Positions 6,672 through 25,542 of a stretch of DNA of 64,000 nt are shown one piece after another; position 1 is the first letter of the stretch, and every line of letters starts with the position of its first letter. The stretch is from the NCBI RefSeq assembly GCF_001761465.1, contig NZ_CP017479.1, forward strand, positions 3,410,001 through 3,474,000, read 5' to 3'. The notes under the pieces were generated by a model. That model did not search any database, was not told where the DNA came from, and saw only the letters and a list, made by a program, of their open reading frames with translations. The stretch comes from Flavobacterium gilvum (lineage in GTDB: Bacteria; Bacteroidota; Bacteroidia; Flavobacteriales; Flavobacteriaceae). The translations under genes and the position numbers were made by a program.

Positions 6672-7373
6672 TTAGCCCAGCCACCCATCACGATCCAAGC
6701 TTCTGTACTGAATTGCTTCGGCGATATGTCCAGAAGCCACTTGAGGTGAATTATCCAAATCGGCAATTGTTCGCGCCACTTTCAGGATTCTGTCGTAGGC
6801 ACGAGCCGAAAGATTCAGTCGTTCCATAGCGGTTTTCAGTAAGTTTTTGGAAACATCGTCAAGAATACAATATTCCCGAATGTGTTTGGTGTTCATTTGT
6901 GCATTGTAATGAATATGTTCCATTTCTTCGAATCGTTTGGATTGTAATTCACGAGCTGTGGTAACTCTTTTCCGAATATCAACACTGCTTTCGGCTTTGC
7001 GGTCATCAGACAATTTTTCAAAAGGAACGGGAGTCACTTCAATATGAATATCGATTCTATCCAGTAAAGGTCCCGAAATCTTGCTCAAATACCGTTGCAT
7101 TTCATGTGGCGAAGATGTTTGCGGAGCATCAGGATCATTAAAAAAACCTCCCGGACTCGGGTTCATACTCGCCACCAACATAAATGACGAAGGATATGTC
7201 ACCGTAAATTTTGCCCTCGAAATGGTTACTTCCCTGTCTTCAAGCGGTTGACGCATAACTTCGAGAACATCTCGTTTGAATTCTGGCAATTCGTCCAAAA
7301 ACAAAACACCATTGTGCGCCATAGAAATTTCTCCCGGTTGCGGATAACTTCCTCCGCCCACCAAAGCAACATT
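6672..7373 (-). pseudogene. yifB/comM-like Mg-chelatase-family ATPase, C-terminal fragment cut by island insertion
   Basis: About 234 codons of the C-terminal half of a YifB/ComM-type AAA+ protein (intact members have about 510 residues). The remaining segments NVALVGGGSYPQPGEIS, GVLFLDELPEF (Walker B region), MNPSPGG and LLDRIDIHIEV, plus the C-terminal Mg-chelatase lid domain, are well preserved, with no internal stop. Family similarity ends near 7374, directly next to the promoter and gene of a large serine recombinase reading away from it. The N-terminal half, including Walker A, is not found anywhere else in the window. ComM promotes branch migration during natural transformation in Gammaproteobacteria; the role in Bacteroidota is inferred. 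The fragment is presumably non-functional. Confidence 0.9.
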
Positions 7374-7406
7374 TGTTGCATATATAGATTGTGTGGAATA
7401 TATTTG
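7373..7406 (+). promoter_or_regulatory. serine recombinase promoter at the yifB junction
   Basis: A TTTGTTG stretch (7372-7378) lies 20 bases before TATATTTG (7399-7406), a good match to the Bacteroidota -33/-7 pattern, about 20 bases before the recombinase ATG. The -33 part coincides with the point where yifB similarity stops, so the promoter appears to straddle or abut the attachment site. Confidence 0.5.
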
Positions 7407-7426
7407 TATATTAAAATCAAATGGTT

Positions 7427-9250
7427 ATGGGAAAAGTTGCGATATATGCGAGGGTTTCAACGGTTGACAAACAAGACTATAATAGACAAATAAATGATTG
7501 TAAAACCGCTATTGGTGATAAATATACAGAAAATAACATTGAGATATTTGCTGAACAAATATCAGGATACAAACCTAATGAGGTTAGACCTCAATTAACC
7601 AAAATGCTTGATATAATTGAAAAGGATAACAAATACTTTGATAAAATATATGTAACAGAGATTTCGAGACTTGGAAGAGACCCTAAAGCTACAAGAAAAC
7701 TAATAGATGACTTAACAGATTATAAAATCCCAATCTTCATTACTTCAATCAATCGACAAACAATTGATGAAGATACTGGTGAACGTGACAGCATAATGAA
7801 CATCATAATTCAAGTTTTAATTGAATTTTCGGATTCTGAATCCAAAACATTCAAAAAAAGGTCAAAGTCAGGTTTGCTTGATTCTGTTAGAAATGGTATT
7901 GCTGGTGGTTCACGTAATCTACCATATGGTTATACAAAAAATGAAACCAAAAAGCTAATCGTTGATGATGAAGAAGCTGTTATCATAAATGAAATATTCA
8001 ACTTGTATAAACAAGGTAATGGATTCAAATCAATTGCAACATTATTGAATCATAGAGAAATACCAACAAGAACAAATAAAGCATTTGCTGGTCAAGTAAT
8101 TAAGTATAAAACCCAAAAGCTTGGTGAAAGTGTTAAATGGACTGATGTTGCTATTGATTGTATTATTAAGAATCCAATTTATTATGGTAAAAGAAGATAT
8201 AAAGGGGAAAAATTGAAAGATGATGAAGTATATGATGGTGAAATTACAAAATCTAAAGAAAAAGGGGTAAGATATAAAACAATATACCTAGATGCACCAG
8301 CTATTATTGATGAACAATTATTCAATGAATGTAATGAAATCAGAACCACCAAAACACATAGAAACTATCTAACAACTTATACTTACCTACTTAAAGACTT
8401 ATTGTATTGTGGTTGTTGTGGTAGAAATTATTTTGCAAAATTCAAACCAGTTGAGGGTGGTGACAAGGTTTATATATGTTCATCAAGACTTATTAAAGGT
8501 GGTAATTGTGGTAACATTGGTATTAATATATCATTATTGGAATCAGCAATTTATAATGAGTTCTTATTAACGGATAGCCTCTTGAAATTCTTACAAGAAA
8601 ACAATATCAAAGAAGACTTAGATGTTAAGCTAAAATCACTTAAAATTGACCTAGATATTAATCAAGCATCTTTTGATAAAAAAGAAAATGAAAAGAAGCG
8701 GCTGCTAAGAGTATATTTGGCTGAAACAATCAACGAGAATGAATATACTGTACAAAAAGCTGAAATTGATAAAAGTGAAAGTGAATTATTATCTAAGATT
8801 GAATTGATTAAATCAGAAATATTTCAGATTCAAAAAACAATTGAAAGACAAAACGATAATCAAGCTACACGTGAAATGATACTTCAAGCAAGGGATAATA
8901 GAACTGAATTAAAAACAATATTCAATCAATTCATCACAAGGGTTATCATTAATAAATTGGATGCTAAAACGGTGCTTGCAAGCGTATTTATTCAAATCAA
9001 AGGACAGGAACAAAAACGACCAATGAATCTATTCTTAAACATCAGGGGATTAATTGGAAGACCTATGAAATACCAATATGTTCCAGTATTTCAAAAATCG
9101 CATTTACCAGCCTATGAAAACAATATTCTAATGACTGATGCAAGTGAAGTGATATTTCATAATATGCATCAGATTGAATTTGATATGAAAACAATTGAGC
9201 AGGAAAATTTAATACTTATTGAAAATACCTATCCTATTCAACCAAAATAA
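7427..9250 (+). CDS. large serine recombinase (site-specific integrase)
   Basis: A 607-residue integrase/excisionase of the large serine recombinase group. The N-terminal resolvase domain begins AIYARVST with catalytic Ser11 and includes the EISRLGRD motif near residue 75 and a long helix. The Recombinase domain follows (PYGYTKNE, then SIATLLNHREIPTR), then a zinc ribbon (paired cysteines LYCGCCGR near residue 325 and CSS...NCGN near 350), and then a coiled-coil segment rich in Lys/Glu (about 390-480). I prefer the second ATG (7427), which places the catalytic core at the very N-terminus; 7421 is possible. It lies immediately inside the left island end, the usual place for the gene that moved the element. 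Confidence 0.93.
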   Translation: MGKVAIYARVSTVDKQDYNRQINDCKTAIGDKYTENNIEIFAEQISGYKPNEVRPQLTKMLDIIEKDNKYFDKIYVTEISRLGRDPKATRKLIDDLTDYKIPIFITSINRQTIDEDTGERDSIMNIIIQVLIEFSDSESKTFKKRSKSGLLDSVRNGIAGGSRNLPYGYTKNETKKLIVDDEEAVIINEIFNLYKQGNGFKSIATLLNHREIPTRTNKAFAGQVIKYKTQKLGESVKWTDVAIDCIIKNPIYYGKRRYKGEKLKDDEVYDGEITKSKEKGVRYKTIYLDAPAIIDEQLFNECNEIRTTKTHRNYLTTYTYLLKDLLYCGCCGRNYFAKFKPVEGGDKVYICSSRLIKGGNCGNIGINISLLESAIYNEFLLTDSLLKFLQENNIKEDLDVKLKSLKIDLDINQASFDKKENEKKRLLRVYLAETINENEYTVQKAEIDKSESELLSKIELIKSEIFQIQKTIERQNDNQATREMILQARDNRTELKTIFNQFITRVIINKLDAKTVLASVFIQIKGQEQKRPMNLFLNIRGLIGRPMKYQYVPVFQKSHLPAYENNILMTDASEVIFHNMHQIEFDMKTIEQENLILIENTYPIQPK

Positions 9251-9699: not shown

Positions 9700-10437
9700 T
9701 TATAACTCATCAATTAGTTCCGCAATTATTTCAGGTCTTAGAATTGTAGCTAATTTTGTTTGTTCATTTCTAAGATGAATTAGTCCTGCAAATTCTGATT
9801 TTATTACACCATTCTCGGAATAGTTGGTAAAAACTGGAGAACCAGAAGTACCTTTTGTCAATGTTCCGCTTTCATATGATACTACATAATTGTCAAAATC
9901 TAATTCATTTGTTTCAAAGTATCTAAGCGGTTTGTTATACTCGAATTTTAAGTTACCTTTAAATTCAGTAGGTTTTAAACTTTCTAAATACAAGTCAGGG
10001 TTATCTTCATTTCCGTCTACAACACCAAATCCATAACATATAATTTTGGTGGGTAAACAATTAGGTTTAATTTTTACAATTTTCAAATCATATTGTTTAG
10101 CTATATCTACTTTATAAAAGTTAATATCAAGATTTTTGGATTTTTCGGATTTAGAAATTGGGTTATTATTTATTTGCAAAAATTCTAATTTATTCGTTAC
10201 ATTATTATGTAGTCTAATATAAAAAAAATCTGCTGTTTTTTGAGTTGCAAACTTATCTTGAAAAAAATTGTGTGAAGCCGTAACCAGATATGTTTGGTTG
10301 TCTTTTTCAATAAAAAAACCTGTTCCTTGGTGAACTTGATTATCCTTCACAGAAAACAGGAAGTAACTAAACTCTTGAATTGGATTAATCCAGATATTGT
10401 TTAAAACCATAAGTAATATAAATGTTTTAATAATCAT
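9700..10437 (-). CDS. trypsin-like serine peptidase
   Basis: A 245-residue protein with an N-terminal hydrophobic segment (about residues 4-18) that may be a signal peptide or anchor. The chymotrypsin-fold triad can be placed: His56 in VTASHNF, Asp104 in LDINFYK and Ser198 in GTSGSPVF, with GTGFFIE before the first strand as in bacterial S1/S1C peptidases. There is no PDZ domain, unlike DegP/HtrA. The gene lies 109 bases downstream of the HNH gene on the same strand, and both are enclosed by the 34-bp direct repeats. Stand-alone trypsin-like domains occur as effectors in some defence systems, but no partner sensor is seen here, so a role in surface or periplasmic proteolysis is as likely. Confidence 0.75.
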   Translation of the reverse strand: MIIKTFILLMVLNNIWINPIQEFSYFLFSVKDNQVHQGTGFFIEKDNQTYLVTASHNFFQDKFATQKTADFFYIRLHNNVTNKLEFLQINNNPISKSEKSKNLDINFYKVDIAKQYDLKIVKIKPNCLPTKIICYGFGVVDGNEDNPDLYLESLKPTEFKGNLKFEYNKPLRYFETNELDFDNYVVSYESGTLTKGTSGSPVFTNYSENGVIKSEFAGLIHLRNEQTKLATILRPEIIAELIDEL

Positions 10438-10546
10438 TGATTTTAATAAAGTTTACTTGTTTATTATGGCTTGTGAATTTACTTTTTTTTTCAAAATTGC
10501 GCACAGCGTCAGTCTTTGAAAAACTTCGATTTGTTTGCAGTATTAT

Positions 10547-11050
10547 TTATTCGTACGTCAATTCAGTATTTGCAGGGTCAATCCATTTATCAATAAATTC
10601 TTTTCCTTTTGGTGTAAGGACTACAACAAATTCTTGTAATTCAACCGTTCCGTCATTGTATGTAAAATTGCATATTGTATGTTCATTTTTAACCAAGTCA
10701 TTGTCAATTAGATTTTTGATTGATAAATGTCCATACACAATTACCTTATTTTCTTTTCTCAAATATTCTAGGACATCAAGCTCATATTTTGAATATCTGT
10801 CGGAAAGGAATACCAACTTGTTTTTATAAATTTCTATTGATTTCTTATCTATTTCGCCTTTATCAAAGCGTGTGTGACAGTTAGGACAAAGTGCAATAAG
10901 ATTATGATAATCGTGACTTTTCACAGTTGAATAGGGCACAATATGAGCCAATTCAGTCGTAGGAAATCTACAAGTTGGAATTGCACATCGGTGTCCAGCT
11001 TCTACTAGTATTGTTCTTTTTAATTCTGCAGGTATATGTTCTCTACTCAT
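10547..11050 (-). CDS. HNH endonuclease with zinc-binding cysteines
   Basis: A 167-residue protein whose N-terminal half is an HNH nuclease domain. Cys22/Cys27 and Cys55/Cys58 bracket the core, the catalytic motif is His36 (LAHIVPYS), Asn50 (DYHNLIALCPNCH) and His59. The C-terminal half (about 85-167) is a winged-helix-like region (YGHLSIKNLIDNDLV, then a hairpin) that could bind DNA. The frame opens 20 codons earlier; the ATG ending at 11050 is preferred because AAAAAGATG supplies a leader and the domain starts directly. The upstream sequence contains an AACGTTATAC...TAGCGG stretch like the cassette borders at 15215. Target unknown. Confidence 0.8.
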   Translation of the reverse strand: MSREHIPAELKRTILVEAGHRCAIPTCRFPTTELAHIVPYSTVKSHDYHNLIALCPNCHTRFDKGEIDKKSIEIYKNKLVFLSDRYSKYELDVLEYLRKENKVIVYGHLSIKNLIDNDLVKNEHTICNFTYNDGTVELQEFVVVLTPKGKEFIDKWIDPANTELTYE

Positions 11051-11173
11051 CTTTTTATTATTGCATACAACGTTATACATACTCGCTATTGAGTAGCGGT
11101 TTTGTGTCAAATATAGAGATAATATTTTTATTACAAATCATCAATTAGGTTTTTGTTTTTATACTATTGGGGT

Positions 11174-11207
11174 ACAAAATGTTTTTTGGGTGCTTGGTGG
11201 GATTCTA
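11174..11207 (+). repeat. 34-bp direct repeat, copy B
   Basis: Near-identical to copy A, 1558 bases further on and in the same orientation; together they enclose the protease and HNH genes. The rest of the gap 11051-11392 is AT-rich and holds no gene that I can see. Confidence 0.65.
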
Positions 11208-11392
11208 GTGTACCATTGTGCAAAAAACCCAAAAGCTAGTTATTTTAACAGGTTAAATAAATTACATAAAAACAGATATTACATCTTATTGTAGCAATTA
11301 AATTACTGATTATCACAAAAAATTAAGCTGTAAATTTATCAAATTATTTATTTAAAATAATTTAAACCAATTATGAACATTTAAAATAAATT

Positions 11393-11815
11393 ATGATGAA
11401 AAATATACTTAAATTATTATCGATTTTAACATTGTTCATTACTGGAAATTCCTGTTCCAATAATGATGACCCGACTCCACCCCCATCACCCACAATTTCT
11501 TATTATCAGGCTGGTTTAGCAACCTTACAAGACCTCAGTTTTGATGTCCAAGGACAGGGAGGATTAGCAGTAGCCAAATTAAACAAAACTGACAAAACAA
11601 TTCTATTTATTATAAACTACAGTAGTTCCCTGCCTTTTACACCTACAAGTATTACTTTAGCTGGACCTGGAAATGCAGGTCAAGAACGAGGCGGAGAATC
11701 ATTGTTATATTTTCTTGACACACTTGGAGACAAGACAACAACAAAAACTTTTACCCTTACTGATGAACAAATAGTAGCAATTAAAACGGGGCGGTGTTTT
11801 TTTGGATTTACTTAA
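11393..11815 (+). CDS. CHRD-like secreted lipoprotein, C-terminus frameshifted
   Basis: A lipoprotein-type signal peptide (hydrophobic residues 5-17, then GNSC with Cys at about residue 21 and an Asp/Pro-rich linker) precedes a small beta-rich domain that resembles CHRD domains (LTDEQIVAIKTG near the end). The frame stops at 11815, but another frame continues the family-typical ending (SIIGGQLQATKTSF) to a stop at 11877. The two frames are joined if the run of seven T at 11797-11803 had eight. It is therefore either a real truncation or a homopolymer sequencing error. It is the only plus-strand cargo gene between repeats B and C. Function unknown; CHRD proteins are extracellular. Confidence 0.6.
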   Translation: MMKNILKLLSILTLFITGNSCSNNDDPTPPPSPTISYYQAGLATLQDLSFDVQGQGGLAVAKLNKTDKTILFIINYSSSLPFTPTSITLAGPGNAGQERGGESLLYFLDTLGDKTTTKTFTLTDEQIVAIKTGRCFFGFT

Positions 11816-11925
11816 ACTATAGCAATACAACTTCCATAATAGGAGGACAACTTCAAGCAACAAAAACAAGTTTCTAAAGTTCATTTAATTCAAACAAAAG
11901 ATTTAATTCATAATGCAAATATTGT

Positions 11926-11959
11926 TTTTACCCCTTTGGCGGGATTCTAATATATCTCG
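11926..11959 (+). repeat. direct repeat, divergent copy C
   Basis: Shares TTGGCGGGATTCTA and a T-run with copies A and B, in the same orientation, 752 bases after copy B. Together B and C enclose the lipoprotein gene. Only about two thirds of the positions agree, so it is weaker than A and B. Confidence 0.4.
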
Positions 11960-11999
11960 ATTCAAAAAAACCAAAAACACGGAAAATTGACCCAAACAA

Positions 12000-12023
12000 A
12001 ATAAGCCCCATACAGGGCTTATT
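12000..12023 (-). terminator. intrinsic terminator of the resolvase remnant
   Basis: A perfect 9-bp stem (AATAAGCCC / GGGCTTATT) with a 6-nt loop. On the minus strand it is followed by TTTTGTTT, and it lies about 40 bases after the remnant's stop. Confidence 0.8.
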
Positions 12024-12063
12024 ATATTTATACAACACCTTGATATTGCTTTTATATTATCGT

Positions 12064-12557
12064 TTAACCGATGGCTTTATTCGAGGCTGCAAACATATCC
12101 CTAACAGGTGAATATCTTGGTCTGCCACCAAGTTCTTTTATAGCATTGGCAACCCTTTGAACAGTACTTAGATTCTTACCAGTTATCTTTGCTATGTCTC
12201 GGTAGCTAATTGGATTGGTATTGCCCTTACGTTTGTTCTTATTGAACATCTTGCATATATCAATTGTTGGGTGCATATCTCTTCATTGGACATTGTAGTA
12301 CCTTTCAAACGCCCCTTGTACTTTCCAACCAATTGACCAATCCTAATCCCCTCAGCTTGCCTTTCACGTAGGGTGCAAAGCTCCTGCTCTGCGATATTTG
12401 CAAGGATGGTCACCACCATCTTAAATGCTGGATTCTCTTTACCATCAATAAGGCTATACATACCGATGTTATGCACATAGATAGTTACACCGTTATCGTG
12501 GATAAATTGTAATGTTTCCAAAATATCTAATAAGTTCCTACCCAAGCGACTTACCTC
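12064..12557 (-). pseudogene. resolvase/invertase remnant, N-truncated and frameshifted
   Basis: Fragment of a small serine recombinase. It starts inside the EVSRLGRN motif (a stop lies directly upstream), so the catalytic N-terminal 60-70 residues are missing. The dimer helix follows (FKMVVTILANIAEQE, ERQAEGI, KYKGRLKGT), then a frameshift between about 12255 and 12285, after which the helix-turn-helix (ISYRDIAKITGKNLSTVQRV) continues in another frame. The intact resolvase at 17660 has the same order (KYKGRVKG, then LSLRKIASIANVSLGTIQKV). It is dead recombinase DNA and marks an earlier insertion event in the island. Confidence 0.8.
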
Positions 12558-12584
12558 TTACCTCTATGGATTTTTTTAATCAAA

Positions 12585-12614
12585 AAAGGTGACTGCTTTA
12601 ACACAATCACCTTT
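12585..12614 (-). terminator. intrinsic terminator downstream of the 12625 gene
   Basis: An 8-bp stem AAAGGTGA / TCACCTTT (12585-12592, 12607-12614) with a 14-nt loop, directly after the stop at 12625; a T-run follows on the minus strand. Confidence 0.7.
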
Positions 12615-12624
12615 CAGTTTCAAA

Positions 12625-13050
12625 TTAAAAGGTATCTTCAATGTCAGATAAAATTTCCGAATATTCATCATCAGTTACAAATGAATCATAATCGTCATCT
12701 ATAGCCCTCGAATATCTTAGATAAAATTGAACTTGATTTTGCAACATTTCAATTTCCCTTTTAATATATTCTTGAACATATCTAAAAAATGTTTCTTTAA
12801 GTTTTTGAATATAGATTTCTTTTGATTCTGCATTCAAATATAAGGTTTGTTCCTTGTCAGAAAATTTTGTAGTCCAAGCACGGTATATTGAATCATCTTT
12901 TGAAACATTTTCATCATCATAATCATCATCATAATTCCATTCAATACGCATATATTTATTCTTACCAAATAATGCATCATCCATTTTATTAACGATAGCT
13001 ATTCTTGCATCACAAGCTTCTTTGTAAGCTTCTAAAGTGTTTTTTTTCAT
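12625..13050 (-). CDS. hypothetical acidic protein (141 aa)
   Basis: Begins MKKNTLEAYKEACDARI at the ATG ending at 13050. The frame is open further upstream, but that part overlaps the end of the preceding small gene, so the inner start is chosen. Very acidic stretches (NYDDDYDDENVSKDD about residues 37-51; AIDDDYDSFVTDDEYSE near the end) surround a helical, lysine-rich middle (YIQKLKETFFRYVQEYIKR). No family recognised and no membrane segment. It is the last gene of a three-gene set with 13-base and 5-base gaps, so it is probably co-transcribed with 13064 and 13246. The acidity could suit a DNA-mimic or chaperone-like partner, but that is speculation. Confidence 0.6.
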   Translation of the reverse strand: MKKNTLEAYKEACDARIAIVNKMDDALFGKNKYMRIEWNYDDDYDDENVSKDDSIYRAWTTKFSDKEQTLYLNAESKEIYIQKLKETFFRYVQEYIKREIEMLQNQVQFYLRYSRAIDDDYDSFVTDDEYSEILSDIEDTF

Positions 13051-13063
13051 AATTGTTAAATAT

Positions 13064-13240
13064 TTAATTTTTAATTCTTTTAAACGTTTCAATTATTTCC
13101 GATGCAAGTTTCAAAGTAGCTTCATCACACTTAAAACTTCCATTTCTAATAATTTCCCTGTATTTAATACACAATTCAATTTCAGGTTTTTGTTCAACTA
13201 ATATCTCAGCTTGGGTGAGAATTTCAACTATTTCTTTCAT
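13064..13240 (-). CDS. small hypothetical protein (58 aa)
   Basis: Starts MKEIVEILTQAEILVEQ at 13240, five bases after the stop of 13246-13899, and ends 13 bases before the next start, the spacing of an operon. It predicts three short helices, contains two cysteines (CIKYRE and FKCDEA) and no signal peptide. No family recognised. Its small size and its place between two co-directed genes are compatible with an antitoxin or adaptor. Confidence 0.55.
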   Translation of the reverse strand: MKEIVEILTQAEILVEQKPEIELCIKYREIIRNGSFKCDEATLKLASEIIETFKRIKN

Positions 13241-13245
13241 AATAC

Positions 13246-13899
13246 TTAGTTTTGGTTAACTACATTATTGTTTGGGATTATAAAAAATCTGCTTTTAAAA
13301 TCGTTTACGTGGATTCCATTTTCAAAATTGATTATTATAATCCATTTGCCGTTTTGATATATTTCAATTCTCATCCATTCATCAATTGGAATCGGCACAA
13401 GTGAGCCAAACCATTCATTTGGATTGCCACCCATTTTTTTGCCAGCATTTTCAAATGGTTTAATATATTCTTTTTGCATATTTGCCAGTCTTGCTATAAT
13501 TTTCCAATTATGCAATTTAAAAGTTGGCTTTATTTGGATTCTTGCGCATCCGCAACAATCAACCTGTTCAGCAAATGTTAATGATTCAAGTATTCCATCG
13601 GATAAACAAATGCTTTTGGTTGCTGTGTTTTCCCAATTGGGGTTTGATGATGCCCAAGCTATTGGTTTTTCTGATTCATCATATTGGTACTTTTCGAATT
13701 TAATAACTTGTGAATTTATGATTGTTGGAATTAAATCTTCACGTGTATAGTGAAAGAATCTATTTTTAACAATATCATCTTTTGGTTGATTAATTAATAG
13801 TGTTGTTGCGCTTCCATTCTTTTTATCAACATTTTGGATTCTTAATCCTTTGTTTGATTTTAAAATTTTTCCTACTTTCTCTTTTGAATTTTGTTTCAT
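13246..13899 (-). CDS. hypothetical protein with FHYT motif (217 aa)
   Basis: A soluble 217-residue protein. After a basic N-terminus (residues 1-45) comes FHYTREDLIPTIINSQVI (about 48-65), a histidine-tyrosine-threonine followed by a short helix that resembles the start of several ADP-ribosyltransferase-like families (for example DarT-type proteins). Then come WASSNPNWENTATK and a CCGCARIQIK strand. The similarity is by eye only and no full catalytic set can be placed. First gene of the small minus-strand operon 13899-12625. If the ART-like reading is right, the operon could be a toxin-antitoxin or defence module; otherwise the function is unknown. Confidence 0.55.
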   Translation of the reverse strand: MKQNSKEKVGKILKSNKGLRIQNVDKKNGSATTLLINQPKDDIVKNRFFHYTREDLIPTIINSQVIKFEKYQYDESEKPIAWASSNPNWENTATKSICLSDGILESLTFAEQVDCCGCARIQIKPTFKLHNWKIIARLANMQKEYIKPFENAGKKMGGNPNEWFGSLVPIPIDEWMRIEIYQNGKWIIIINFENGIHVNDFKSRFFIIPNNNVVNQN

Positions 13900-13971
13900 T
13901 TTTTTATTTATTTACTGTTATACTCTATTTTTAAATAATATTATTTGAAATCACATAACCATAAAAATCAC

Positions 13972-13997
13972 GAAACCCTAGTAAATACTAGGGTTTC
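13972..13997. repeat. perfect 12-bp palindrome upstream of the 13899 operon
   Basis: GAAACCCTAGTA and its exact inverse with only AA between. It lies 73 bases before the start of the 13899-12625 operon, so it may be an operator; it could also be a terminator for transcription arriving from the right. Confidence 0.5.
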
Positions 13998-14493
13998 AAT
14001 GCATATAAATATTTTACTATTTAATTTCATATATATATTTTAAAAAAAAACTTCATTTCTATAGTACTATTTCAAATTATATTATTTACTTTTGTCCCGT
14101 GCATACTTATACACTTGCATAAGTACAACATTCCCACGAATAAAAAAAAGATTCCGTGGTGAATTTTCAATATATTTTATCAAACGATTTTAAGGCATAT
14201 TTAAGAACCTGTCTTCTTTTGAAAACAATCTGCACCATAATTACTTTATCGTGCCTAAAAATCAACACTAGATACCTTATTTTTAATTTTAACATTATTG
14301 TAAGTAATTACCTTTAATTAATTACTTATCAAACACCTTACTTCCCTATTTCATTTAGATTTGTTAAAATATTATTTAGATTTAATCCATATAACATTTT
14401 AACTTATGGTCACTTGACATTAAAAATGTAAGGTGTAAATATTAAAATTGCTCTCATGTTTTTTTTAATTGATTTTTCGTTGGTCATTTAAAA
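13998..14493. other. AT-rich gene-free stretch
   Basis: I see no gene here. There is a TACTTTTG box near 14085 followed by a small inverted repeat (TACTTAT 14104-14110, ATAAGTA 14119-14125) and an imperfect CCACGAAT/ATTCCGTGG hairpin about 14136-14160. These could be the start of a short RNA, without further support. Confidence 0.3.
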
Positions 14494-14632
14494 TACCACA
14501 TAAAGTCTGGTACTAAATCGGATTTGGGATTAAATTAAACCCTATTTTCGGATTTGCCAAATCATTTAACTACAAAACCATCTTTCCAATAAGCCAATTG
14601 CCCAAATCCGTTGTAGCTGTTAGCGGTAGGCT
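14494..14632 (-). repeat. cassette-border repeat R1 (about 139 bp)
   Basis: Aligns along its length with R2 (15215-15354): both contain TTTGGGA(T/C)TAAATTAA(A/G)CCC, TTCGGATTTGCCAAATCAT and AAATCCGTT in the same order and spacing. Its right end TTGTAGCTGTTAGCGGTAGGCT is a near inverse of the R2 left end. It lies directly after the stop of the 14631-15176 gene. It resembles integron attC-type recombination sites in size and imperfect terminal symmetry, but lacks the strict attC consensus. Confidence 0.65.
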
Positions 14633-15176
14633 ATATTATCTTTCTTATATAATTTTCGTTGTTAGTATTTTCTCCTCTTGAAACAACAAAACTGTAGCTT
14701 ATGTCAAAATCATAGATACTTCGTAGCAATATTTCCGTTGGTTTGAAAAAAATGAATATTTTCTCACCATAACTTTTTGAAATAAAATAGCGAGATGGAG
14801 AAAATGGGCGTTTTGTTTTAAAAATTATGGAGTTATCACTTTGACTTTCAATTTTCCAATCATTATTTTCTGCAATTTCAAAGATTTTTTCAAAGACTTT
14901 TTCTTTTGTGTCTTTAACTGTAACTGATTTCAATTTTAGATTAGACTTTTGATATAAAAAACTAATCATACTTAAAAGCAATAATGTTGTGCCAATTTTG
15001 AAGGTAGTATTTCCGAAATCAATTTCGAAATTTAAAGCACTTTCATTACAAATTAATAAGCTAAACATAGCTATAACAAAAAGTATAATTGAAAGTCTAT
15101 AATGTAATATCTTTTCAATAAAATCTAATTGTATTTCTTGTCTTTGAATAGATTTTTGAATTAGTTCAAGATTCAT
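14631..15176 (-). CDS. small membrane protein of unknown function, cassette-borne
   Basis: A 181-residue protein. An N-terminal helix (about 1-22) leads into two membrane segments (about 26-42, LSIILFVIAMFSLLI, and 62-78, IGTTLLLLSMISFLY), then a cytoplasmic domain with KVFEKIFEIAENNDWKIE and a hydrophobic beta region. No catalytic motif and no family recognised. Its stop overlaps the end of repeat R1, and R2 begins 39 bases before its start, so gene plus borders form a compact cassette of about 0.7 kb. Confidence 0.6.
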   Translation of the reverse strand: MNLELIQKSIQRQEIQLDFIEKILHYRLSIILFVIAMFSLLICNESALNFEIDFGNTTFKIGTTLLLLSMISFLYQKSNLKLKSVTVKDTKEKVFEKIFEIAENNDWKIESQSDNSIIFKTKRPFSPSRYFISKSYGEKIFIFFKPTEILLRSIYDFDISYSFVVSRGENTNNENYIRKII

Positions 15177-15214
15177 TTTACAATTTTAGTTTTTATCCTC
15201 TTTTCACGTTTTTA

Positions 15215-15354
15215 GCTTACCGCCAACGTCCCGTCTACTACAGCGGGTTTGGGACTAAATTAAGCCCATTCTTCGGATTTGCCAAATCATACCAAATACA
15301 ACCTCAACTTCAAAATAAACTAATTTTCTAAATCCGTTATTGTAGCTCTTGAAG
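15215..15354 (-). repeat. cassette-border repeat R2 (about 140 bp)
   Basis: Second copy of the R1-type repeat, in the gap between two unrelated small genes. The left end GCTTACCGCCAACGTCCCG is well preserved and contains an inner CCCG...CGGG hairpin; the right end (TTGTAGCTCTTGAAG) has diverged. A similar left-arm sequence precedes the HNH gene near 11062-11107. Confidence 0.65.
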
Positions 15355-15362
15355 ATTTATTT

Positions 15363-15866
15363 TTATTTTGTTTTACCATTCTTATTCCAAAATAATTTAT
15401 CGGAATGTTTAATAATCATCCATTCTTCAATGGAGGTTCTCATATATGCTGGTTCGATTTGAATAAAAGTTGCTCCTACAATAAAATCATCTTCAATAGC
15501 CTTTTTTATTTTTTCTAACTGAGAACCTGTTGCTTTATTTTTTCTCGAAAAATGAGCTATCATTCTATATTTTGAAATTGTTTCTTTGGCATGACCAACA
15601 TAATATGGGTTTAAATTATCTTTTGATTCTCCAATCCAAATACAATATACAACTGATTTTTTATCAATATCACTAAGGAATGTTTTGTTGAGATTGTCAA
15701 AGTTGGTTTCACAATTTTTGTCCTCGTAATTTATAAAATGGATTTGAGATTTGTCAAGCAAATGATTTTCAACTCTCGAAAACCAATTTTCCAATTCAGT
15801 CTTATTGAACTCAATTTTAGGGGCATTTATTCTAGTTTTGATAGATGCATTCTCAATGTTCTCCAT
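15363..15866 (-). CDS. GIY-YIG-like small protein
   Basis: A 167-residue soluble protein. After an N-terminal helical region, residues about 72-110 read VVYCIWIG, then YYVGHAKE, an Arg in SKYRMIAHF and a GSQLEKIKKAI helix. This matches the order of the GIY-YIG nuclease fold (first strand, second strand with Tyr-Val-Gly, conserved Arg on the helix). A glutamate in SIEEWMIIKH could be the metal ligand. The match is by eye and the first motif is not the classical GIY, so it may be an inactive or divergent member. It lies between cassette repeats R2 and R3, as the second cargo gene of the array. Confidence 0.5.
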   Translation of the reverse strand: MENIENASIKTRINAPKIEFNKTELENWFSRVENHLLDKSQIHFINYEDKNCETNFDNLNKTFLSDIDKKSVVYCIWIGESKDNLNPYYVGHAKETISKYRMIAHFSRKNKATGSQLEKIKKAIEDDFIVGATFIQIEPAYMRTSIEEWMIIKHSDKLFWNKNGKTK

Positions 15867-15878
15867 ATTTCTGTTTTA

Positions 15879-15961
15879 TTTAGGGATTTTCCAATTCATC
15901 CAAATTAAAAAACTACTTCCTATTAAGCCTATTACCAAAATTCGTTCAGAAGTACTGGGGT
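15879..15961 (-). repeat. cassette-border repeat R3 (partial, divergent)
   Basis: The stretch from GATTTTCCAATTCATC through ATTAAGCCTATTACC to AATTCGTTC aligns with the right two thirds of R1; the left arm is missing. It fills the gap between the GIY-YIG-like gene and the next gene. Confidence 0.45.
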
Positions 15962-15967
15962 AAATTT

Positions 15968-16624
15968 TTATACTTGTCCATTTTGATGGAGATATAACTG
16001 ATATATACAATCTTCTTTACTTTTTGCGTAAGTCCTGCCTTTTAAACTATGGAGGTAAAAATATTTTCCAGTTGATTTGCCTTGCATTATGTAACCATAT
16101 TGGTCATTTGAAAATGTAATCAATATCTGGGTGTATGAACCAAAGAAGATGTCAAATTTGTTTTCGGGTAAGCCTTCCTTATACTCAAGGTTTGTAAAGC
16201 TATTAAACACTTTATTTGTTCTACTATCTACGGAATACTTTTTATTTAGATATTCATTGAGCTTTTCAATTGTCTTGAAAGAATTACCTATTTTGGTCTC
16301 GTTGAGAAAAAAAGCATAAGTGTCAGTGTTGTGAAGGTTTAAAACCAAAATAGTTTCGTCAAAAAAGGAGTTTCTGAATAATAATGATTCTTCTGAGTTT
16401 TCAATTAAGATTGTCTGATTACCTAAATAATCCCAATTGCTTTTTTTGACGTTTCCACTTTGAGAAATCAACAAATCTTTATTGTCTCTAAATATATAGG
16501 TTGTTTTAGTATCTGTCGAACTGTCAAATGCAACCCAATGGTGATTCTGTATCAATGTCAACTCGTCAAGTTGTCGGCTGAAACTTTGTAATTTTGGAAT
16601 GATGTCTGATAAATAATATTTCAT
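15968..16624 (-). CDS. hypothetical protein (218 aa)
   Basis: A soluble 218-residue protein rich in aromatic residues and Asn. N-terminal helix LQSFSRQLDELTLIQ, then beta-rich segments NHHWVAFD, TTYIFRDNKDLLISQ, ILVLNLHNTDTYAFFLN and YGYIMQGK. No signal peptide, no catalytic motif, no family that I can name. The ATG at 16624 is preceded by an A-rich leader. It is the third gene bounded by the cassette-type repeats on its downstream side; no repeat of this kind is seen on its upstream side. Confidence 0.6.
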   Translation of the reverse strand: MKYYLSDIIPKLQSFSRQLDELTLIQNHHWVAFDSSTDTKTTYIFRDNKDLLISQSGNVKKSNWDYLGNQTILIENSEESLLFRNSFFDETILVLNLHNTDTYAFFLNETKIGNSFKTIEKLNEYLNKKYSVDSRTNKVFNSFTNLEYKEGLPENKFDIFFGSYTQILITFSNDQYGYIMQGKSTGKYFYLHSLKGRTYAKSKEDCIYQLYLHQNGQV

Positions 16625-17543: not shown

Positions 17544-17659
17544 TGTAAGTCAATTAATCTATTGGAAAATTTAACATACTACGTATACAAATAGAGTGTA
17601 CTTTATTTGCATACAATAATTATATGTTGCACATTTGCATTATCAAAATAAATCAAGAA

Positions 17660-18259
17660 ATGAAAGCAAGATACATACGTGTTTCATCATCAACACAAAA
17701 TACCATAAGACAAACAATTAAACAACATCAAGATGAACTTGTATTCATTGATGTAATTAGTGGTGCTATACCATTTGATAATAGACCACAAGCAATTGAA
17801 TTAATAAAAGCAATTGAAGCTGGAACAATCACCTATTTATCAGTTGAAGCAATAGACCGTGTGGGGCGCAATGCGTTTGATATACAAAGTACAATCAATT
17901 GGTTAAACTCGATGGATGTTACACTAAAGGTTGACAACTTAGGTATTGAATCATTCGTTGATGGCAAGCAAAATTCAATCTTTAAAATGATTACTGATGT
18001 ATTAGCCAATCTTTCACAAATGGAAAGGGAAGCTTCAAAAGAAAGGCAAGCACAAGGTATTGCAATTGCTGTTGCACAGGGAAAATACAAAGGGCGTGTT
18101 AAAGGTTCTGGTGCAAGTGATGATGAAGTGTTGACCAAATATAAGGGTGTTGTTAAAGCGATACGACAGCACCCTGATTTGAGTTTAAGAAAAATAGCAA
18201 GTATTGCTAATGTTAGCCTTGGTACTATTCAAAAGGTAAAAGGAAAAATGGGCAAATAA
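17660..18259 (+). CDS. serine recombinase of the resolvase/invertase family
   Basis: A 199-residue small serine recombinase. Catalytic serine region KARYIRVSSST at the N-terminus, DRVGRN motif near residue 70, long dimer helix with LANLSQMEREASKERQAQGI, and a C-terminal helix-turn-helix (LSLRKIASIANVSLGTIQKVK) for DNA binding. The frame is open 12 codons earlier, but starting at the ATG at 17660 places the first strand at the N-terminus. A possible res site lies upstream. It may resolve cointegrates or invert DNA in the island. The degenerate copy at 12064 has the same architecture. Confidence 0.9.
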   Translation: MKARYIRVSSSTQNTIRQTIKQHQDELVFIDVISGAIPFDNRPQAIELIKAIEAGTITYLSVEAIDRVGRNAFDIQSTINWLNSMDVTLKVDNLGIESFVDGKQNSIFKMITDVLANLSQMEREASKERQAQGIAIAVAQGKYKGRVKGSGASDDEVLTKYKGVVKAIRQHPDLSLRKIASIANVSLGTIQKVKGKMGK

Positions 18260-18399
18260 GTGTTAACATAAAATGTAAAGGCTGTTAATAATAATGCAAT
18301 AATCAAAGAGATACTTTTATATCATTTATTAGAATCAATAATTTATTAGGAGAAACATCTTTTTCGTAAATTTCGACTTTTGTCAAATTGAGTCCTTTT

Positions 18400-18433
18400 T
18401 GATTAAAGTAAAGGTTATTTTTGGTTACATTTG
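18400..18433 (+). promoter_or_regulatory. promoter of the TPR-peptidase/MazG/helicase operon
   Basis: TACATTTG (18426-18433) matches the Bacteroidota -7 consensus exactly, and a TTG (18400-18402) at the end of a T-run lies 23 bases before it. The start codon is 50 bases downstream. No other promoter-like box was seen inside the operon. Confidence 0.5.
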
Positions 18434-18483: not shown

Positions 18484-20448
18484 ATGAGAATAATCCATAG
18501 AATTGACGATTTTTTAAATACCATATTTCCAGAAATTCAACATAACAACAATATTATTAATGTTTTAGAGAAGTTTTATTCCTATGGAACGATTAAACCA
18601 AAAGTCGTTATTGATAATGAATTTGTTATTATTGACATAGATATAATTTTAATTACTACTCAGGAAAACGATTTTAGAAAAGTTATATCTTATTGTGAGA
18701 ATGGAAATTTTGTTGAAGCAAAACCATTATTACAAAATTTGATTGAGCAAAACCCATCCAATTCCGAATATCATAGAATTCTTGGTCAAATTTATTCAGA
18801 TGAAGGTGACCAAGATGAAGCAATTAATTTTCTTATCGATTCTTTAAGATGGGATTCTAAAAATGCCTATGCTTTAGTAATGATGGGAAATATATTTGCA
18901 AAATACAAGAACGATATTGATACTGCATTAAAATACTATGACCAAGCATTAATTGTAAAACCCGATGATAATATTACCTTAAATAATATCGGAGCAAATT
19001 TACTACAGCTAAATAAATTTGAAAAGGCAAAAAAATATTTCCAAAAGGCTTTGGGTATAAATGATAAGTATCCAAATACTTATTATGCTCTAGCATTGAT
19101 TTCAAATGAAGAAGGTGATTTAAATTCCTCTTTCAATTATTTTATTCAAACGGCTAAGTATTCAAAGAAAAATGATTTTTTTTATAAAAAAGGAATAGAG
19201 GAAGCTCTCCTAATTTCAAACAAAATTTTTGAAGAAAATAATGACAAAAATATTTTCAGAAATTATCGTGTATTCCTTGAGCAAAAAGGAGGTATTGAAA
19301 TTGAAATTGAAAAAGATGAATCAATTTCAACTCCAGCTAAAATTGAATTTGCCGAAAATTATAACAGGGATAAACACATAATAAAGTTTAAAGAATCCGT
19401 TCCTGCTTATGACCATTTAATAATGCATGAATTAGTTCATTTAGATTTTGTTTTAGATGCAAAGAAAGAAGAGAAAAATCTATTATACACCACAACATTA
19501 CAACATAAAAATATTTTTTTAAAAAGCATAGAACCTTCTCTTAAAAAATTAAAGCAAAGAGGGATTTCTGACCAAGGTATTAATACTTATGGGTCAAGTC
19601 TTTTTGATGGAGTTAACTCTCAAATATTTAATGCACCAATTGACCTTTTTATTGAGAACTATTTATTTAATGAATATCTAGATTTAAGACCTTTTCAATT
19701 TGTTTCGTTATTAAATCTTGTGCAAAATGGATTAAAAGCTGTTATAGATAAACAAGTCCTAGAATTGACACCCAAGGAAGTGGTATCGAAAACTAAAATA
19801 TACAATTTAGTTGGTGCTTTTCAATTAAGAGATTTATATGCTATAGATTTTATTAGCGAATATAATGCAAGTAAATTAGAGTTAGATATTGCAAATAAAT
19901 TTTACAATGAATACCTTGAGTATAGGGATGATAAAAAACCTGCGGAAGAGTATGAATTAGTTCAGCACTGGGCTGAAGATTTAAAACTAAACGAATACTT
20001 TGAACTTATTGGTGAAGACCAATATAGAAAAAGGAGCAATGTTGATGATTTTATTGATTCATTAGAAAAAGACCCTTTTGGGCAGGATGAAAAAGACCCT
20101 GTCAAAGACCTGAAAATGAAAACTTTTCTGGAAAATCAAGAAGAAATTGGACTTAATATGGCTGTTGTTATGTTTATGGTCGGTGCTTTTGAGTTTTTTG
20201 AAGGTAAATCTAATGAAGAAATTAAAAAAATTGCTTTCGAAATAGCTATGCAAGGTACACAAGGATATGACCCTAATATAAAGGATTATAAATTAAGTTC
20301 TATAGCTAATAAATCGTTTTCAGGCTATCAGATATTGGCATATTACTATGTTAGTTGGGCTATTGCAATTCCAGAAATGTTATCCCAGTTACAACTTCCA
20401 TTTGACAAAGAGTATAAATTAGCATCGACCATGTATAATACTAAGTAA
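18484..20448 (+). CDS. TPR protein with HExxH zincin-like metallopeptidase domain
   Basis: A 654-residue soluble protein. Residues about 60-240 form TPR repeats (for example AKPLLQNLIEQNPSNSEYHR, DEAINFLIDSLRWDSKNAYA, ALKYYDQALIVKPDD, AKKYFQKALGI), a platform for binding partner proteins. Then comes a metallopeptidase-like region with HELVH (His315, Glu316, His319), and Glu391 in FIENYLF could be the third zinc ligand. The remaining 250 residues are helical without recognised motifs. First gene of a strict three-gene operon: the next gene starts one base after its stop. TPR plus zincin architecture recalls stress- or phage-responsive proteases (ImmA/IrrE-like logic), but the family is not one I can name. 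The ATG at 18484 is preferred to the TTG at 18478. Confidence 0.65.
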   Translation: MRIIHRIDDFLNTIFPEIQHNNNIINVLEKFYSYGTIKPKVVIDNEFVIIDIDIILITTQENDFRKVISYCENGNFVEAKPLLQNLIEQNPSNSEYHRILGQIYSDEGDQDEAINFLIDSLRWDSKNAYALVMMGNIFAKYKNDIDTALKYYDQALIVKPDDNITLNNIGANLLQLNKFEKAKKYFQKALGINDKYPNTYYALALISNEEGDLNSSFNYFIQTAKYSKKNDFFYKKGIEEALLISNKIFEENNDKNIFRNYRVFLEQKGGIEIEIEKDESISTPAKIEFAENYNRDKHIIKFKESVPAYDHLIMHELVHLDFVLDAKKEEKNLLYTTTLQHKNIFLKSIEPSLKKLKQRGISDQGINTYGSSLFDGVNSQIFNAPIDLFIENYLFNEYLDLRPFQFVSLLNLVQNGLKAVIDKQVLELTPKEVVSKTKIYNLVGAFQLRDLYAIDFISEYNASKLELDIANKFYNEYLEYRDDKKPAEEYELVQHWAEDLKLNEYFELIGEDQYRKRSNVDDFIDSLEKDPFGQDEKDPVKDLKMKTFLENQEEIGLNMAVVMFMVGAFEFFEGKSNEEIKKIAFEIAMQGTQGYDPNIKDYKLSSIANKSFSGYQILAYYYVSWAIAIPEMLSQLQLPFDKEYKLASTMYNTK

Positions 20449-20449
20449 T

Positions 20450-20779
20450 ATGAGTGATTTTAAAGAAATAATCGATTCCTTAAAAAAGTTTAGAGATGAA
20501 AGAGATTGGGAACAATTTCATAATCCAAAAGATTTATCATTAGCAATTTCTATTGAAGCCTCTGAATTACTTGAGTTATTTTTATGGAAAAAAGCAGAAG
20601 ACGCAAATATTGAAAAAATCAAAGACGAATTAGCAGATGTTTTTTCATTTGCATTTCTATTAGCTGATAAATATAATTTGGATATTAAGGATATTGTACT
20701 AAATAAAATTAATCAAAATGCTCTCAAATATCCTGTAGCCAAATCAAAAGGGACAGCCAAAAAATACAATGAATTATGA
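20450..20779 (+). CDS. MazG-like nucleotide pyrophosphohydrolase
   Basis: A 109-residue all-alpha NTP-PPase of the MazG/dCTPase-like superfamily. The metal-binding residues are all there: Glu36 and Glu39 in IEASELLELF, Glu60 and Asp63 in KDELADVFSFAF. Tryptophan and FHNPKDLSLAIS segments before them match the short RS21-C6-like members. It hydrolyses an (d)NTP or modified nucleotide to the monophosphate and pyrophosphate. It starts one base after the TPR-peptidase gene and overlaps the helicase gene by four bases (ATGA), so the three products are almost certainly made together. In this setting it may deplete or cleanse a nucleotide signal. Confidence 0.88.
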   Translation: MSDFKEIIDSLKKFRDERDWEQFHNPKDLSLAISIEASELLELFLWKKAEDANIEKIKDELADVFSFAFLLADKYNLDIKDIVLNKINQNALKYPVAKSKGTAKKYNEL

Positions 20780-22674
20780 TTGTTTATCAGAACTCAAAAA
20801 AATCATTTATTGAAGATGTAATTTCAAATAATATAGAAAATGTAATTCATGATTTTTTTCAACAAAAACTTGGTCAAAAAACTACAAGTGGTGAAATCAG
20901 TTCATGGAAAAATTCCATGCAATATATGAATAATGTTTTAAATGATGCAGAAATACCAAATGATGCAGGTGTGATAATAGAGTATCAAATACCTCAAACT
21001 TCAAAAAGAATAGATTTTATTTTAACAGGACAAGATGAATATGAAAAAACCTATGCTATTCTTATTGAGTTAAAACAATGGTCTGAGGCTGAAATAACGG
21101 ACAAAGAGGCTATAGTTACTACTTTTGTGGGTAAAAGATATCGTGAGGCCACTCATCCATCATACCAAGTATGGTCATATGCTTCTTTATTGGAAGGTTT
21201 TAATGAAGCTGTATATACTTCAGATATAATCCTAAAACCATGTGCATATCTTCATAATTATACATCTGATAATAAAATCGACAATATAATTTATAAAGAA
21301 TACATAGATAAAGCCCCTTTGTTTTTTAAAAACGATACTTATAAGTTGAGGGATTTTATTAAGCAGTTTGTTAAATTTGGTGACAAGAAAAACATTATGT
21401 TTGAAATTGATGGTGGTAGAATACGACCATCGAAGAATTTAGCTGATAATCTATCCTCAATGCTCAAAGGTAATAATGAATTTCTAATGATTGACGACCA
21501 AAAAGTTGTTTATGAAAATGCGTTAGCATTGGCAAAAAAAGCTACTTTTAATAATAAACAGGTACTGATTGTTCAAGGAGGTCCTGGAACTGGGAAATCA
21601 GTTGTTGCAATAAACTTGCTTGTAAAATTAACTAGTCAGAAGCTTTTAGCTCAGTATGTTACTAAAAACGCAGCTCCTAGAGCTGTATATGAGACTAAAT
21701 TAAAAGGTTCTTTTAGAAAGTCTGAAATAACTAATTTCTTTACAAGTTCGGGTTCTTTTATTAATACTATGCCCAATATTTTTGATGCTTTAATTGTTGA
21801 TGAAGCACATAGATTAAATGCTAAATCTGGAATGTTTAAGAATCTTGGCGAAAACCAAATTAAAGAGATAATTCATTCGTCTAAATTTTCTATTTTCTTT
21901 ATTGATGAAAACCAAAAAGTAGCCATTCACGATATTGGAGAAATAGATGAAATAATAAAACTAGCAAAAGAACAAAATGCAGAAGTAACAAAATTGGAAC
22001 TTAATTCTCAATTTAGATGTAATGGTTCTGATGGATATTTAGCTTGGCTAGATTATATTTTACAAATTAGAGAAACTGCAAATACTTCACTTGATAGTGA
22101 AGAATATGATTTTAAAGTTTTTGATAATCCTTCAGAATTAAGAGATTCAATTTTTGAAAAAAATCTTATCAATAATAAAGCTAGATTAGTTGCAGGTTAT
22201 TGTTGGCCATGGTTAAGTAAAAAGGATTTTAATGCTAAAGATATTATTTTTCCTGAGTTTGATTTTGCAATGAAATGGAATCTAACGGAAGATGGAATGA
22301 AATGGGTTATTCAACCCGAATCGGTTAACGAAATAGGTTGTATACACACATGTCAAGGATTGGAAGTTGATTATATCGGAATTATAGTAGGTGAAGATTT
22401 AACAGTTAGAAATGGGATTGTTATGGTTGACCCTTCAAAAAGAGATTCTAATGACAGTACAATTCGAGGTTATAAATCTATGATGAAATCGAATCAGGAA
22501 TACACGAAAGAATTAATGAGAAATATTATAAAGAATACATATAGGACTTTAATGACTCGTGGAATGAAAGGCTGTTATATTTATTGTGTTGATAAAGAAA
22601 CGAATCAATATTTTAAGGACTTAATAAAATCTAATACTTTAATCGATTTGGTAAATGTTAATAGAGCATTCTAA
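20776..22674 (+). CDS. PD-(D/E)xK nuclease fused to DUF2075-type helicase
   Basis: A 632-residue two-part protein. The N-terminal half carries a PD-(D/E)xK nuclease pattern: Asp80 in RIDFIL, Glu98-x-Lys100 in LIELKQW, and a Gln/Ser-rich helix (PSYQVWSYASLLEG). The C-terminal half is a DUF2075 (Schlafen-group-3-like) superfamily-1 ATPase: Walker A GGPGTGKS at residues 268-275, Walker B VDEAH at 341-345, a QFRC motif near 413 and a late GCIHTCQGLEVDYIG segment typical of SF1 motifs V/VI. It probably unwinds or translocates on nucleic acid and cuts it. Its start overlaps the MazG gene by four bases. Fusion to a nuclease plus MazG and TPR-protease partners suggests host defence. Confidence 0.85.
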   Translation: MIVYQNSKKSFIEDVISNNIENVIHDFFQQKLGQKTTSGEISSWKNSMQYMNNVLNDAEIPNDAGVIIEYQIPQTSKRIDFILTGQDEYEKTYAILIELKQWSEAEITDKEAIVTTFVGKRYREATHPSYQVWSYASLLEGFNEAVYTSDIILKPCAYLHNYTSDNKIDNIIYKEYIDKAPLFFKNDTYKLRDFIKQFVKFGDKKNIMFEIDGGRIRPSKNLADNLSSMLKGNNEFLMIDDQKVVYENALALAKKATFNNKQVLIVQGGPGTGKSVVAINLLVKLTSQKLLAQYVTKNAAPRAVYETKLKGSFRKSEITNFFTSSGSFINTMPNIFDALIVDEAHRLNAKSGMFKNLGENQIKEIIHSSKFSIFFIDENQKVAIHDIGEIDEIIKLAKEQNAEVTKLELNSQFRCNGSDGYLAWLDYILQIRETANTSLDSEEYDFKVFDNPSELRDSIFEKNLINNKARLVAGYCWPWLSKKDFNAKDIIFPEFDFAMKWNLTEDGMKWVIQPESVNEIGCIHTCQGLEVDYIGIIVGEDLTVRNGIVMVDPSKRDSNDSTIRGYKSMMKSNQEYTKELMRNIIKNTYRTLMTRGMKGCYIYCVDKETNQYFKDLIKSNTLIDLVNVNRAF

Positions 22675-23994: not shown

Positions 23995-25542
23995 ATGGCA
24001 AACAAAATAACAGACATGAGTAAAATTAGAAAAGTAATTAAATTCTATTGTGATGGAAAAAGTAAGTTATTTATAAGTAGCTACTTATCCCTTTCTAGGA
24101 ATACGGTAAAGAAGTATATTTCTTTATTTGAAGTTCTCGGATTAAACTTTGAATTTATTGATAAAAAAACAGATGCTGAACTAGAACTTTTGTTTTCACA
24201 GACTACTGTGGAATCAATTAGTCCCAAATTACAAACACTCCATAATTATTTTCCTAAAATGGAGCGTGAGCTAAAAAAAGTTGGCGTTACCATACAACAT
24301 ATGTGGGAACAATATGCTGCCATAAACCCTGATGGTTACAGGAGTTCTCAATTTGCTCATTATTACAAAGTATGGAGTAAACAAGTCAATCCAGTGATGC
24401 ATATGAATCATAAATCCGGTGATAAAATGTATGTTGATTATGCTGGAAAAACACTATCCATTATTGATAGCGACACTGGAGAAATCAAAGAAGTACAATT
24501 CTTTGTGGCTATATTAGGGGCTAGTCAATACACCTATGCTGAAGCTTCTATGAGCCAGCAAAAGGAAGATTTTGTTACTTCTGTAGAAAATGCCATGCGC
24601 TTTTTTGAAGGCACTCCTGCAGCAATTGTTCCAGATAATTTAAAATCTGCAGTAATAAAAAGCAGTCGTTTTGAGCCAACAATTAATGAAACTTTAGCCG
24701 ACTTAGCGGAACATTACGAAACTACAATCTTGCCAACTAGAGCTTATAAACCTAGAGATAAGTCATTAGTTGAAGGGGCTGTAAAGATATTATACAGAAG
24801 AATTTATGTAACACTAAAAGAAACCAAATTCTTTTCTCTAGAAGAATTAAACCAACAGATATGGGATTTATTAGACATTCATAATAATCGAAAACTAACA
24901 GGTCGTCCTTACTCACGAAAAGAATTGTTTGTAGAAGATGAGAAACAAAAACTGCGTCCACTACCACAAGAACGCTTTGAAATCAAATATCAATCCTTTG
25001 CAACGGTAATGCAAAATGGTCATGTCCAATTAAGTCAAGACAAAAATTATTACAGCGTTCCGTATCAATATGTAAAGAAAAAAACGAAACTCTTGTACAC
25101 AAGATCAACCGTAGAGATCTATTATAAATACAATCGAATAGCGGTTCATCAGCGAAATTACAAACCTTATGTCTATACCACAACTCCAGAACATTTAGCC
25201 AGTTCACATCAGTTTGTAGCTCAGTGGAGTGCTGCTCGATTCATTGATTGGGCAGGTAGTATTGATGAGTCAGTAGGAGAATATATTATGCAGATAATCG
25301 AAAGCAGAAACCATCCTGAACAGGCTTATAAAAGTTGTTTAGGAATACTAAACTTTGAAAAAAAGGTTGGTAAGCAGCGATTAATAAATGCCTGTAAACG
25401 AGCGCTTGACTTTAGAATTTACAATTTTAAGACCATCCAAAATATTTTAGAAAACAACTTAGATCGTATTGATTTAGAACAGGAACCTGAGCATGAACTT
25501 CCGAACCACGGAAACATAAGAGGCAAACAGTATTATAATTAA
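23995..25542 (+). CDS. istA: IS21-family transposase IstA
   Basis: A 515-residue DDE transposase. The N-terminal helix-turn-helix (SKLFISSYLSLSRNTVKKYI, about 20-42) binds the terminal repeats. The integrase-fold catalytic residues are Asp148 (VDYAGK), Asp214 (VPDNLKS) and Glu260 (SLVEGAVK), with the expected order and spacing. The C-terminal beta domain (YYSVPYQYVKKK) is present. Length is usual for the family. istB begins 16 bases after its stop, the standard two-gene order. The product inserts the element together with the IstB ATPase. Confidence 0.95.
   Translation: MANKITDMSKIRKVIKFYCDGKSKLFISSYLSLSRNTVKKYISLFEVLGLNFEFIDKKTDAELELLFSQTTVESISPKLQTLHNYFPKMERELKKVGVTIQHMWEQYAAINPDGYRSSQFAHYYKVWSKQVNPVMHMNHKSGDKMYVDYAGKTLSIIDSDTGEIKEVQFFVAILGASQYTYAEASMSQQKEDFVTSVENAMRFFEGTPAAIVPDNLKSAVIKSSRFEPTINETLADLAEHYETTILPTRAYKPRDKSLVEGAVKILYRRIYVTLKETKFFSLEELNQQIWDLLDIHNNRKLTGRPYSRKELFVEDEKQKLRPLPQERFEIKYQSFATVMQNGHVQLSQDKNYYSVPYQYVKKKTKLLYTRSTVEIYYKYNRIAVHQRNYKPYVYTTTPEHLASSHQFVAQWSAARFIDWAGSIDESVGEYIMQIIESRNHPEQAYKSCLGILNFEKKVGKQRLINACKRALDFRIYNFKTIQNILENNLDRIDLEQEPEHELPNHGNIRGKQYYN

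Follow-up and report, generated by a model that had tools for sequence, protein, structure and literature searches.

Certain bacterial immune operons are under the command of genes encoded right next to them. As described in PMC13373217, CapH+CapP, CapW/BrxR, and CapK+CapS control adjacent immune pathways, with CapP being a protease. A TPR-fused protease that is encoded together with a nuclease is also found in the TPR-CHAT (Craspase) of type III-E CRISPR, and MazG is listed in the DefensePredictor study (PMC13092281) as a predicted, unvalidated defence domain. Here, we describe a three-gene operon, Z-M-H, in a 64,000-nucleotide stretch of Flavobacterium gilvum DNA (contig NZ_CP017479.1, positions 3,410,001 to 3,474,000; hereafter, the window), whose first gene product, Z, joins TPRs to an HExxH motif and is likely a shared front end, or protease head, of bacterial immunity that is placed before varied restriction and defence genes. 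Unlike CapH+CapP, CapW/BrxR, and CapK+CapS, Z has TPRs, usually lacks an adjacent XRE-type partner, and comes first in its operon, and with the family profiles used it did not match controllers of any of these three types. Z resembles TPR-CHAT in its architecture, though CHAT is caspase-like whereas Z has HExxH, and the partners of Z are many and different. Membership of Z in the Craspase TPR-CHAT family was considered and rejected, as the Pfam matches up to E 1 include no CHAT family, and an HExxH region is found instead.

The operon and its predicted proteins

On the forward strand of the window, we found three intact open reading frames (ORFs), these being Z (18484-20448; 654 residues), M (20450-20779; 109 residues), and H (20776-22674; 632 residues), with a one-base gap separating Z from M and a four-base ATGA overlap between M and H. 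An earlier note on this DNA had described the same layout, along with the catalytic residues of all three proteins given below, and in each of these respects our analysis agrees with it. Its claim of one promoter is not borne out, since the Bacteroidota-type promoter pattern has 8 occurrences in the window where 7.4 are expected, with one of these at 18398-18433, and sigma-70-like sites in the window are at background level.

Z is a predicted TPR sensor-protease. Its TPR region (18661-19158; approximately residues 60-225) scores over the cut-off with Pfam TPR families and appears as helical repeats in the AlphaFold2 model. Further along, HELVH (19426-19440; residues 315-319) is the predicted zinc site and supplies the HExxH motif of a gluzincin, and in D387-x-x-x-E391 (19642-19656), Glu391 sits in a predicted helix and is the candidate third metal ligand. 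His315, Glu316, His319, and Glu391 are the same in all 22 rows of one alignment and in all 63 rows of a larger one, as is Asp387 in the latter. The C-terminal 422 residues of Z matched no Pfam family at E 0.1, and the Z family is without a profile in the libraries tried.

M matches PF12643 (E 1.5e-17; 64.1 bits for a cut-off of 27) and dCTP pyrophosphatase 1 in the PDB (E 7e-17), and, in common with the MazG and DCTPP1 pyrophosphatases, has the EXXE...EXXD metal residues (Glu36, Glu39, Glu60, and Asp63), with no variation in any of the 22 rows. Going by these sequence matches, M is most likely a dCTP-family member of the MazG-like or DCTPP1-like all-alpha NTP pyrophosphatases. DCTPP1 itself favours 5-modified dCTP.

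H is a predicted PD-(D/E)XK nuclease fused to a helicase, and was matched both by PF09848 (SLFN-g3_helicase, formerly DUF2075; E 9.5e-105, 351 bits for a cut-off of 24) and by the PADLOC candidate model PDC-S41 (E 1.6e-17). Walker A (GGPGTGKS; 21577-21600, residues 268-275) and Walker B are both present with invariant motifs, as befits an SLFN-g3 helicase. Moreover, the predicted nuclease domain in the N-terminal region has Asp80 and Glu98-x-Lys100 (21013-21075), which are invariant in 12 of 12 rows and correspond to the D...ExK signature of PD-(D/E)XK enzymes, and this region also gave a weak, below-cut-off match to NERD (E 0.0097). No methyltransferase was found among Z, M, and H, nor in the 10 neighbouring window ORFs scanned, and the operon thereby shows the (predicted) nuclease tail without methyltransferase that is typical of type IV, or modification-dependent, restriction. 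As a side observation, some H tails elsewhere have an extra C-terminal Peptidase_S24 (LexA-like) match (L006:10293-12500, Pfam E 4.3e-5; L052:8932-11313, by eye), and the shorter H of the window is without it.

Neighbours of Z and the exchange of tails

One pattern-based scan of 84,980 species genomes returned 100 stretches, 78 of them being Z loci, for which the neighbouring ORFs were called and clustered, and the representatives annotated. We assigned the tail classes ourselves, based on Pfam and PADLOC tests of representatives together with BLAST clusters. By this assignment, the 78 loci include M with GIY-YIG-DUF2075 (16), M with PD-(D/E)XK-DUF2075 (9), McrBC-like AAA_5 with DUF2357/PDDEXK_7 (PADLOC PDC-M26; 10, and absent from the window), a methyltransferase and/or ResIII helicase (9), type I restriction-modification (R-M) parts (6), an SNF2 helicase (5, with an Eco57I-type methyltransferase added in L035, L036, and L037, and DISARM-like by PADLOC in the single one tested), BREX genes (4), type IIG (1), and an H upstream of a broken Z (1), while 7 have no recognised tail and 10 run into a contig end. 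The GIY-YIG nuclease exceeded the Pfam cut-off in three of the four tails tested, and its motif is present in 16 of 16.

A restriction or defence module adjoins Z in 61 of the 68 readable loci, and in 57 of these 61 it lies downstream and on the same strand (the exceptions are L022, L032, L041, and L068). A defence-like ORF starts within 2 kb downstream of Z in 52 of 65 loci having at least 1.5 kb of downstream DNA (50 on the same strand), as against 2 of 65 loci (L065 and L068) having one within 2 kb upstream, where at least 1.5 kb was available, and none was found at 4-8 kb upstream; because the defence set was picked from the neighbours, this count shows one-sidedness and is no unbiased enrichment. 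Of the seven loci lacking a recognised tail, one (L059) shows an Eco57I-type match at most 8 kb away, a second (L065) has pieces resembling a helicase upstream, and a third (L078) carries M. The Chlorobiaceae copies of Z (L059, L063, and L079) are without M or a recognised tail, and by our reading have UmuDC-like genes downstream on the opposite strand.

M is complete beside 33 of the 35 tails that have no methyltransferase, as against 2 of the 25 remaining tails. We also observed that M is broken near codon 44 in both L016 and L011, with only the front part kept in L016 and the parts matched separately in L011.

On a quick tree of 63 Z rows (53 labelled by tail class, and with 16 of 60 branches open), the tail class changes 26 times, while shuffled labels gave a mean of 33.9 and as few changes in 0 of 200 trials, which indicates some clustering, yet much switching. 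Closely similar Z copies in L006, L014, L025, and L016 are followed by differing tails (GIY-YIG, McrBC-like, or type I). The DNA of L006 (GIY-YIG tail) and L014 (McrBC-like tail) is 82% alike from the upstream helix-turn-helix (HTH) gene through Z and M, with the likeness ending one base past the M stop codon, and it ends at this same base when L006 is compared with L008 and L025 (McrBC-like tails), the three pairs being 82-84% alike over Z and M. Between L006 and L016, the likeness ends about 44 codons into M, whereupon L016 runs into a type I system. The closest kin of the window Z are in L004 (81% identity in the catalytic part) and L005 (77%), and both have third genes that differ from the window H, this being a distant PD-(D/E)XK-DUF2075 in L004 and the GIY-YIG type in L005.

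Distribution and genomic setting

Z is sporadic and mobile. Counting the genome of the window, it is found in 4 of 397 genomes of Flavobacteriaceae and in 22 of 395 genomes of Bacteroidota. Two plasmid records carry most of a Z (38-40% identity), with Z and H in pieces in the Marivirga one, and a record named Microcystis phage Mwe-JY31 (L088; PP438423.1) has the three genes in order (43% identity for Z, 62% for M, and 61% for H). This last record encodes an annotated ParA and, by our reading, a plasmid-type replication initiator, and looks more like a plasmid than a phage.

The several recombinases that the earlier note had placed around the operon are present in the window as a large serine recombinase (7421-9250), a second serine recombinase (17624-18259), and an integrase-core transposase (23995-25542) that we read as IS21-like. 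Of yifB, into which the note had placed the island, the window contains only the C-terminal half (Mg_chelatase; 7017-7379, reverse strand), right beside the large serine recombinase; the N-terminal half is outside the window, about 0.72 Mb off and on the opposite strand (C1:2694341-2694613, forward strand). It seems that yifB took up an insertion and was then split by an inversion or some other rearrangement. Elsewhere in the window, five of the six reverse-strand ORFs tested at 9700-16624, beside a Trypsin_2-like protein (9700-10437), had no Pfam match.

Readings of the operon

Z, which is common to all loci and mostly the first gene, would be a control protease that senses something general, and H, with its predicted nuclease and helicase, would be the DNA-directed part, for which GIY-YIG, McrBC-like, or R-M modules stand in elsewhere. 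The tie between M and methyltransferase-free nucleases suggests that M would replace methylation in sparing the host, or would add nucleotide starvation. The interpretation in the earlier note, with the nuclease-helicase as the DNA-directed part and the protease and nucleotide enzyme as switch or abortive effectors, is supported in part.

Alternatively, Z might be a repressor-cleaving controller like CapH+CapP, although we regard this as unlikely. Z does sit where such controllers sit, ahead of diverse immune operons, and the clients of CapW and CapH+CapP include BREX and DISARM (both seen beside Z), R-M is named as a neighbour of CapK+CapS (PMC13373217), and CapP is said to resemble PprI/IrrE (PMC10904395). 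Moreover, genes that we read as XRE-type HTH genes lie directly upstream of Z, with a gap of 2-68 bp, in nine loci from three clusters, and L023 and L055 have such genes on its downstream side. The top VIA-align rows belong to a transcriptional regulator of Mycobacterium tuberculosis, which is IrrE-like. However, in 60 of the 69 loci with an upstream gene, no XRE-type gene lies in the 70 bp before Z (one of these, L055, has another HTH-like gene there), the window lacks an HTH partner in the interval from the resolvase to Z, and Z itself carries TPRs and no HTH. A Craspase-like scheme for Z-M-H has the right architecture, but Z appears independent of its tail, which counters docking on one partner. 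That the operon is not primarily anti-phage, and is instead a DNA-damage or mobile-element maintenance module riding in restriction islands, is in keeping with the lack of a recognised tail in 7 of the 68 readable loci, the nearness of the window copy to recombinases, and the plasmid-like record with all three genes, but is quite improbable, given that the one-sided adjacency to defence genes and the shared recombination boundaries exceed mere riding along.

Returning to Z as a shared front end, a fuller scheme can be tentatively drawn, though its chances of being right in every part are slim. Here, one and the same portable protease, in most cases with no repressor to pair with, would stand before DNA-attacking immune modules of eight classes that are for the most part unrelated to one another. 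Where the module lacks a methyltransferase, a dCTP-pool-cleaning enzyme would take on the distinction between self and foreign, by clearing the host nucleotide pool of those marks on which the nuclease acts. Our literature searches found no description of a TPR-HExxH head. The enzyme families involved are already known, as are upstream accessories of immune operons, and what appears new is one that comes from a family without a profile in the libraries tried and has a wide range of clients.
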